The position numbers and the translations under genes were made by a program. A stretch of DNA of 64,000 nucleotides from Bacteroidaceae bacterium (GTDB lineage Bacteria; Bacteroidota; Bacteroidia; Bacteroidales; Bacteroidaceae). Of the stretch, positions 25,803 through 63,119 are shown in pieces (position 1 is the stretch's first letter; each line of letters begins with the position of its first letter). The stretch lies in the NCBI GenBank assembly GCA_017617335.1, contig JAFZWK010000005.1, forward strand, positions 1-64,000, read 5' to 3'. Below the pieces are notes generated by a model that saw only the letters and a program-made list of their open reading frames with translations, had not been told where the DNA came from and did no database searches.

Positions 25803-25878
25803 CAACGTGTTGACTTTGCCAACACAACACGTTGTGTTTGGGATTTCAACGTGTTGACTTTCCCAACTCAACACGTTG
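25803..25878. repeat. CAACGTGTTG array, 22-bp period, four units
   Basis: Ten-base units start at 25803 (CAACGTGTTG), 25825 (CAACACGTTG), 25847 (CAACGTGTTG) and 25869 (CAACACGTTG). The spacing is exactly 22 bases, about two helical turns. The two forms are reverse complements, so orientation alternates. Related arrays lie at 34306-34359 and 62721-62796. It lies between two divergently transcribed genes, upstream of both. Confidence 0.85.
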
Positions 25879-62720: not shown

Positions 62721-62796
62721 GAACACGTTGTAACCTCAAAATCAACGTGTTGAGTTGCCCGACTCAACGTGTTGTCTTTGCGATTTCAACGTGTCG
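62721..62796. repeat. CAACGTGTTG array, 22-bp period, four units
   Basis: Units start at 62721 (GAACACGTTG), 62743 (CAACGTGTTG), 62765 (CAACGTGTTG) and 62787 (CAACGTGTCG), exactly 22 bases apart. It is the third array of this family in the window. It lies directly beside the GCCTACAT array, with 33 bases between them. Confidence 0.85.
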
Positions 62797-62829
62797 CGTT
62801 TACAAAAAAAATTTTTTGAAATGGCATAC

Positions 62830-63080
62830 AAGCCTACATGCCTACATAAATTATATTTAAGTCAAAGATTATCAATCAAATACATTTTTTCAAGCCTACA
62901 TAAAGCCTACACAAAGCCTACATAAAGCATACATACATGGATTTACTATTTAGCGATTTACCAATTACGATTTGATGTAGGCTGAATGTAGGCTGAATGT
63001 AGGCTTTATGTATGCTACTATATGTCGTAACCTATTTATTTACAAACGTTTAAGACGATTTTATGTAGGCATGTAGGCTT
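62830..63080. repeat. Mirror-image array of 11-bp-period GCCTACAT units
   Basis: The outer arms, 62830-62850 and 63060-63080, are perfect 21-base inverted repeats containing two GCCTACAT units each. Inside, AAGCCTACAT-type units start at 62892, 62903, 62914 and 62925, and ATGTAGGCT-type units start at 62975, 62986, 62997 and 63008, all at an 11-base period. A 40-base spacer lies at the centre. The last inner unit on each side carries the same variant (GCATACAT / ATGTATGC). It is non-coding. The form recalls iterons or a large cruciform; function is unknown. Confidence 0.85.
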
Positions 63081-63119
63081 ATTCTCAATTTTTGAAAAAA
63101 AATAATTGAAAAATGATAG

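Follow-up and report, generated by a model that had tools for sequence, protein, structure and literature searches.

A mirrored array of 11-bp-phased units in a Bacteroidaceae genome as a probable orphan copy of an origin-like helicase-loading site

The window analyzed here is a stretch of 64,000 nucleotides from a Bacteroidaceae bacterium (GCA_017617335.1, contig JAFZWK010000005.1), and a palindromic group of short repeats close to its right end raises the question of what such DNA does there; the original prediction considered it possibly a relic or active site of replication or integration. The sequence confirms that the window has two arms facing each other, each with four 8-bp units (GCCTACAT and variants) set 11 bp apart, and that they are part of a larger arrangement with the following features.

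62723..62801, no strand: B module, a 22-bp-period array of CAACGTGTTG units beside the mirror array
62800..62825, no strand: A/T tract on the left, beyond the outer pair, 81% AT (tract conserved in 192 ends)
62832..62847, + strand: left outer pair GCCTACATGCCTACAT, two units at an 8-bp step
62848..62893, + strand: left linker, 46 bp
62894..62934, + strand: left arm, four units at an 11-bp step, read from the sequence
62935..62974, no strand: centre, 40 bp, 70% AT, of the short class without a 22-bp palindrome core
62975..63015, - strand: right arm, four units at an 11-bp step, facing the left arm, read from the sequence
63016..63062, - strand: right linker, 47 bp
63063..63078, - strand: right outer pair, mirror of 62832-62847
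63084..63110, no strand: right A/T tract, 85% AT

The left-arm units start at 62894 (GCCTACAT), 62905 (GCCTACAC), 62916 (GCCTACAT) and 62927 (GCATACAT), and those of the right arm, on the reverse strand, at 62975, 62986 and 62997 (all GCCTACAT) and 63008 (GCATACAT). The sequence thus bears out the earlier description of four units per side that face each other with an 11-bp period across a 40-bp centre, and also the perfect 21-base inverted repeats outside them, since 62830-62850 and 63060-63080 are exact reverse complements across 21 bp. It does not bear out the statement that the inner ends of both arms share a variant unit, because GCATACAT adjoins the centre on the left and is farthest from it on the right. 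Unnoticed before was that the outer inverted repeat is itself composed of two units, head to tail at an 8-bp step. GCCTACAT occurs 13 times in the window against 1.39 expected, and unit pairs at the 11-bp step (at most 3 mismatches) occur 7 times against 0.37 expected; neither 13 nor 7 was reached in any of 100 shuffles.

The B module beside the array is of a dispersed kind. Arrays of CAACGTGTTG plus 12 bp with a 22-bp period were seen at 62723-62801 and 25803-25878 of the window and in many other intergenic places of its genome (G000), and when that genome was searched, a 22-bp array of the CAACGTGTTG type was the target of most of the 69 matches. By eye, these arrays often follow soon after stop codons with A and T runs flanking them, and they may double as bidirectional terminators.

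At least five copies of the mirror array, counting the window, are present in the window's genome assembly (2.37 Mb in 73 contigs, 62% complete); the others are on contigs C15, C40, C73 and C37, the C37 copy being half decayed, and by eye they sit between unrelated genes. An exact unit pair at the 11-bp step was found in 14 of 121 genomes of the genus, this one included, and the backwards control in none. A scan of a collection of named genomes returned 117 stretches with the array pattern, and among the 80 of them that were listed, nearly all were Prevotella, Xylanibacter, Prevotellaceae, Bacteroidaceae or Bacteroidales records, many of the records listed being titled from ruminant stomachs. 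The exceptions among those listed were one Comamonadaceae contig and one Pseudobutyrivibrio bin. The Comamonadaceae match was rejected as a family member because it is an unrelated 8-bp tandem run: in Comamonadaceae bacterium G21597-S1 (L133, 2643-2714), nine exact GCCTACAT units stand head to tail in what is apparently a coding region, possibly a phase-variable tract. The contig in the Pseudobutyrivibrio bin (L127) resembles, by eye, the C40 locus of the window's genome, and its placement in that bin is probably a binning error. The end pattern had no exact match in 2.9 million viral contigs. An empty site was sought in close relatives and none was obtained, as the contig of the only close genome, G009, stops some 110 bp beyond the aligned flank and does not reach the place of the element.

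The plan of the element was compared over 81 two-ended copies (82 sequences listed, the window twice), the majority being from genomes of Prevotella/Xylanibacter type, a set that leaves out the single-ended copies and the half-decayed one on C37. The 11-base period, whose conservation was part of the test set by the original prediction, is kept in 446 of 504 successive spacings, and 153 of 164 arms have 3-5 units (the window counted twice in both figures). The linker measures 46-48 bp in 186 of 192 ends. Directly outside the outer pair, the A/T tract has 82% AT compared with 60-63% farther out, and the centre is only mildly AT-rich, with a mean of 63%. The copies fall into a long class of 55, which carry palindromes of the form AAATTCTC-NN-GAGAATTT, two of them 65-66 bp apart in 54 copies, and a short class of 26, to which the window belongs. 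When the palindromes were masked, the long centres of 54 elements resembled themselves at offset 22 with a score of 0.356, against 0.24-0.28 at the other offsets from 12 to 33. An adjoining 22-bp-period array (score of at least 28) was found in 21 of the 26 short copies, compared with 3 of the 55 long ones and with 11 of 1658 stretches drawn at random from these loci, and the B module of the window scores 30/44. The 22-bp signal is therefore inside the long copies and beside the short ones, indicating that arms phased at one turn and an array phased at two turns go together.

Comparison of flanks among the loci revealed one group that shares both, and these flanks are two divergent genes, hereafter the cassette, which occurs in Prevotella of the gut and its relatives. 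The first encodes a protein of about 704-734 aa with a BT4734-like_N domain (PF08800, E 6.7e-39; 133.5 bits against a cut-off of 22.4) and a VapE-like helicase domain (PF05272, E 7.9e-34), besides weaker DUF5906/DUF3874 matches; the second encodes an HU-HIG protein (PF18291, E 5.7e-16) of about 130-150 aa. A profile of nine helicase proteins matched PDB 7pds_A, 'Similar to D. nodosus vapE' (E 4.2e-11), and the helicase half also matches phage helicase/primase families. Neither the helicase nor the HU protein reached the cut-off of any NCBIfam family, PADLOC returned PrimPol/DRT-related domain matches only, and no close relative of the cassette protein was confirmed in the viral contigs.

A BT4734-like_N/VapE helicase match, an HU-HIG match or both lie less than 800 bp away from 15 of the 81 copies; 11 have both genes, divergently arranged, 2 the helicase only and 2 the HU gene only. 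Another 44 are orphans, with at least 800 bp on both sides free of cassette genes, and 22 are too near contig ends to classify. The cassette copies carry the array in the shared intergenic region, upstream of the helicase gene. Rep or primase/VirE-like neighbours had been named as candidates for adjacent genes, and most of these 15 copies have neighbours of the latter kind. The refuting case named beforehand, an array confined to ordinary intergenic sites with no link to mobile elements and no conserved 11-base period, is not what the copies show, the period being kept in most spacings. Of the functions first proposed, replication is the one towards which this link to a primase/helicase-type gene points, although the window copy is an orphan. 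Reading of the neighbours of the copies showed neither an integrase nor a transposase, and no target duplication was found. No integrase or att sites were noticed beside the cassettes read either; in one distant Bacteroides relative, an integrase is annotated some 3.3 kb away from the HU gene. At one locus (L194) only fragments of both cassette genes remain beside the array. In Xylanibacter ruminicola D31d (L137, 5214-6751), which like strain Ga6B6 is a cultured carrier of the array, the helicase gene is split into two frames and the array is of full length.

The first cassette protein can be placed with the BT4734/BF3469-like family of archaeo-eukaryotic primases (AEP; PF08800), since it scores above the Pfam cut-off and is fused to a PF05272 helicase. 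In the part of PMC5862659 that was available, motif I of AEPs is defined as hhhDhD/E and the VirE/VapE domain (PF05272) is given as a predicted helicase of mobile elements; this part makes no mention of cognate arrays. Unlike the BT4734/BF3469 primases as described there, none of 29 aligned homologues of the cassette protein has both acids of motif I (by eye), which makes self-priming doubtful. Walker A and B are present in the close homologues that reach that far; over the 29 aligned, Walker B is kept wherever it is reached and Walker A is altered in many distant ones. Judged from these alignments, the primase fold may now serve a different purpose.

Unit positions are more conserved than the rest of the element. 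In 41 of 42 pairs among ten cassettes, they were 0.79-0.97 identical compared with 0.47-0.75 elsewhere, although unit positions were defined by a match (at most 1 mismatch) in one member of the pair, which biases their identity somewhat upward; the exception was one near-identical pair (0.96/0.95). For six copies from the window's genome and its close kin, the values were 0.94 for units and 0.67 for the rest, and copies within four other genomes gave 0.97/0.73, 0.97/0.85, 0.98/0.90 and 0.95/0.70; unit positions were defined in the same way here, with the same bias, and of the copies compared two belong to cassettes (G083, G073) and some are at contig ends.

Arrays and cassette helicase also tend to occur in the same genomes. 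Ten of the 121 genomes have a homologue that matches with an E value of at most 1e-180, at 44-85% identity, and arrays were found in 8 of these 10 compared with 6 of the 111 others (Fisher p 1.4e-7, with the cut set after the list was seen and kinship of the genomes uncontrolled). The cut falls in a gap, the next best match being at 1e-127, and adding G085, with a 227-aa match at 52% and no arrays, changes p to 4.8e-7. The array genomes in which no close homologue was found are the window's own (62% complete), G009, G052, G080, G103 and G104. A GCCTACAT array is directly upstream of the homologue in only 4 of the 8 (G118, G083, G064 and G073), and G051 has no array in the upstream DNA that its contig keeps.

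At other homologues a different repeat occupies the upstream region. By eye, G057 (70% identity) has a mirror array of ACCTACAT/ACATACAT, G090 (66%) a CTCTACT array and G033 (67%) one GTAGAGG arm, all at the 11-bp step. The CTCTACT-type pattern gave 35 matches in G090 at seven places, one of which is the cassette, 21 in G033, 4 in G118 and 0 in G000, G057, G083, G073 and G116, while its backwards control gave 2 in G090, 2 in G033, 5 in G118, 1 in G057 and 0 in the rest; G090 has no GCCTACAT unit pair. Three TTCCCANNNTGGGAA palindromes at 22-bp steps are present in 6 of 7 loci of G090 and in 4 of 8 loci from G033, G118 and G057. They are absent in the other five, four of which are cut near a contig end, and the fifth, from G057, has a 21-bp repeat in the centre instead (33/44). 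These diverged units with the same phasing at 11 bp and 21-22 bp indicate that the sequence changed and the geometry stayed.

Copies elsewhere in the genome match the repeat type of the cassette in G083, G073, G090 and largely G033. Two array types occur together in G033 and in G118, the latter having a TCTACY place besides its GCCTACAT cassette. In G114 and G036 (45 and 44% identity), the units at the homologue look like CTATACAT/TCCTACAT and the other copies are GCCTACAT, with 20 and 2 unit-pair matches, respectively. G057 has its variant array at the cassette and no further copies.

Phased arrays may be a wider property of BT4734/VapE-type genes, although this is less certain. Because a k-mer count upstream of 30 genes was too blunt, upstream iterons were measured by period score: among 40 such genes, 17 have a strong 22-bp-period array upstream (at least 31/44) and five more reach at least 31 at other periods, compared with maxima of 28 in 400 Markov sequences and 29 in 400 stretches of the window. 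The array units differ by genome. GTCCCAYTARTGGGAC, for example, occurs 26 times in G116 and 0, 0, 1, 0, 0, 1 and 0 times in seven other genomes, and in four places it is 125-695 bp from the 5' end of the match to a BT4734/VapE gene of G116. Palindromic 22-bp arrays in that genome are common to several BT4734/VapE genes and many other places (C4:42166, C11:30622 and C2:63609 are examples among the 26 sites).

Distant relatives of the cassette protein (those listed at 26-37% identity) are found in 71 plasmid and 481 phage records, of which 5 and 7 cover 80% of the query. A Parabacteroides plasmid record has a 22-bp array (36/44) before a gene annotated BT4734/BF3469, two Bacteroides records have weaker ones (29 and 25), and a cat Bacteroides plasmid record shows an HU family gene, a small frame and BT4734 in divergent arrangement. 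HU-HIG-like matches are also present in the loci of four distant homologues (L288-L291). A gene with similar residues at its end, judged by eye, precedes 22-bp arrays and BT4734/VapE genes in tandem on contig C70 of the window's genome (L307), on C4 and C11 of G116 (L333, L331) and in L349, where it is annotated DUF6078.

Apart from cases such as G114 and G036, the array beside the gene tends to change with the helicase, which gives it the look of an origin-like element that spreads. We give a probability of about 0.56 to the reading that the window array is an orphan copy of a cognate, origin-like helicase-loading site of the cassette, with its units conserved; binding, replication and the mode of spread are what we infer here from sequence comparison. 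The helicase, with HU-HIG, would bind the units, whose 11-bp phasing puts one on each helical turn and all on a single face of the DNA. Because the arms face each other, a pair of helicase rings would be loaded head to head, in the manner proposed for iteron origins. Wrapping and opening of the DNA may be aided by the array of 22-bp phasing together with the A/T tracts, and the orphans would be extra copies of the cassette site that spread through the genome, with their units kept by selection or renewed. Against a plain origin, copies away from the cassette genes outnumber those beside them, the primase motif I is incomplete and the site is upstream of the gene.

The nearest known systems are SaPI and SCCmec. 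According to the available part of PMC7581432, SaPI replication requires a Rep helicase that recognizes an iteron origin next to its own gene, seemingly in the form of two hexamers. For SCCmec, a putative origin is bound by Cch2, and the same paper states that replication of SCC in vivo is still to be shown. As in these systems, so far as that part describes them, the gene of a primase/helicase-type protein adjoins intergenic short repeats in the cassette, and its helicase half matches the vapE-like 7pds_A. Unlike the SaPI origins, placed downstream of rep in the same part, the cassette site is upstream and between divergent genes. Set against that description of SaPI and SCCmec, the cassette further differs in its mirrored 11-bp arms, outer pairs at an 8-bp step and 22-bp-phased array, and in its HU-HIG partner, incomplete primase motif and many copies away from the cassette genes.

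Other parallels are partial. The array shares 11-bp repeats, two clusters and a centre of about 40 bp with parC of plasmid R1, which, like other ribbon-helix-helix centromeres, has two clusters of 11-bp direct repeats flanking such a centre; the clusters of the array face each other, unlike those of parC. The alpha protein of phage P4 is a primase-helicase whose ori and crr carry short iterons in both orientations, which resembles the cassette, but P4 has its own integrase and a phage life cycle, and no integrase was seen at the cassettes read.

A domesticated system, in which the helicase-HU pair uses the orphans for nucleoid organization, segregation or gene control and not for its own replication, is possible but rather unlikely. 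It agrees with the conservation of units in copies away from the cassette genes, with the loss of the motif I acids while Walker B is kept, with the intergenic position of the arrays (flanking genes divergent in 14, tandem in 16 and convergent in 8 of the 38 scored) and with the possibility of several such genes per genome. Nevertheless, the GCCTACAT unit pair is present in only the 14 of 121 genomes of the genus counted above, and some array genomes have no detectable close partner gene. Moreover, in contrast to essential chromosome sites, no sharing of orphan places was found; by blastn, no orphan pair has at least 120 bp in common on both flanks (72 of the 81 copies testable). Shorter flanks are common to a few orphans (L131, L162, L223), and some of the places may therefore be old.

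The orphans could also have arisen from a self-spreading origin, in which the cassette binding site was copied to many chromosomal places without a transposase, perhaps through aberrant over-replication and recombination that started there. Every lineage would have evolved a repeat code to go with its helicase, and one genus would hold mutually distinct networks of orphan helicase-loading sites. We regard this extension as doubtful.

Unlikely, too, is a MITE-like origin, with the arms as transposon ends that each contain several sites for an undescribed transposase and the cassette merely carrying one copy. MITEs, foldback elements and REP/BIME sequences are dispersed, non-coding and have inverted ends, sometimes with short subrepeats, and the array is similar in its many dispersed copies and its inverted ends with conserved spacing. 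None of the 44 orphans is inside an open frame of at least 110 aa, no orphan pair shares both flanks in the blastn comparison above, asymmetric end linkers are kept within one genome read closely, and GCCTACAT copies exist in genomes without a close helicase homologue. The array is nevertheless tied to the helicase/HU cassette, at a fixed place in 15 copies, unlike such elements, and no transposase partner was found. Comparison of 75 elements over offsets 0-49 showed no clear target-site duplication, the strongest signal being an identity of 0.41 against 0.27 for 2 bp, and no copy in the 117 stretches, which are at most 8 kb and come from contigs often ending in the repeat, has a second end more than 700 bp away with a gene between. 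Among the 12 single-ended copies read, neither an autonomous transposon nor a recurring gene inside was found: 11 enclose ordinary genes (one ORF6N-like by eye), and the twelfth has no frame of at least 100 aa inside.

A transcribed structure, either a bidirectional terminator or a small RNA, dispersed like REP elements, is very improbable: although the inverted repeats are between genes and the B module is often flanked by A and T runs, Rfam at gathering score found no family in the elements of eight loci (tmRNA and tRNA elsewhere only), the two matches near the window copy were both sub-threshold, and phasing at one and two turns with conserved units and freer linkers fits DNA-binding sites better.

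Under the orphan-site reading, the BT4734/VapE and HU-HIG pair gains a predicted cognate DNA site whose sequence changes between lineages. This would account for one kind of phased repeat between the genes of Prevotella-type genomes, and it may point to a route by which DNA spreads within a genome using the binding site of an initiator and no transposase. BT4734/VapE relatives are common in the genus, being present in 81 of 121 genomes sampled (E 1e-15 or better). In the literature searched, from which subscription papers were mostly outside, we recognized no cognate array for BT4734/VapE/HU-HIG genes and no account of these Prevotella repeats, and we found no described function for the gene pair.

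As for the window copy, it occupies an ordinary intergenic site and counts as an orphan. Cassette proteins had no match between 58 and 64 kb of the window, and in the window's genome, at its 62% completeness, the only helicase homologue detected is one of 32% identity on contig C70; the array of that BT4734/VapE gene shares only an ACACGT core with the unit of the window's B module. The original prediction placed the array among remnants of an ATPase and a kinase. A Pfam scan of eight nearby frames gave Sel1 and WG repeats only and no ATPase, and the right-hand neighbour of the array is an open frame of 546 aa. For the kinase there is an indication by eye: a fragment at 61997-62269 matches part of the adjacent protein (741 aa) with 36% identity over 69 aa, and the matched part looks kinase-like, although Pfam finds only Sel1 repeats in that protein. 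These surroundings are not relevant to the array, and the fragment looks like a partial duplication of part of the neighbouring Sel1-repeat protein.
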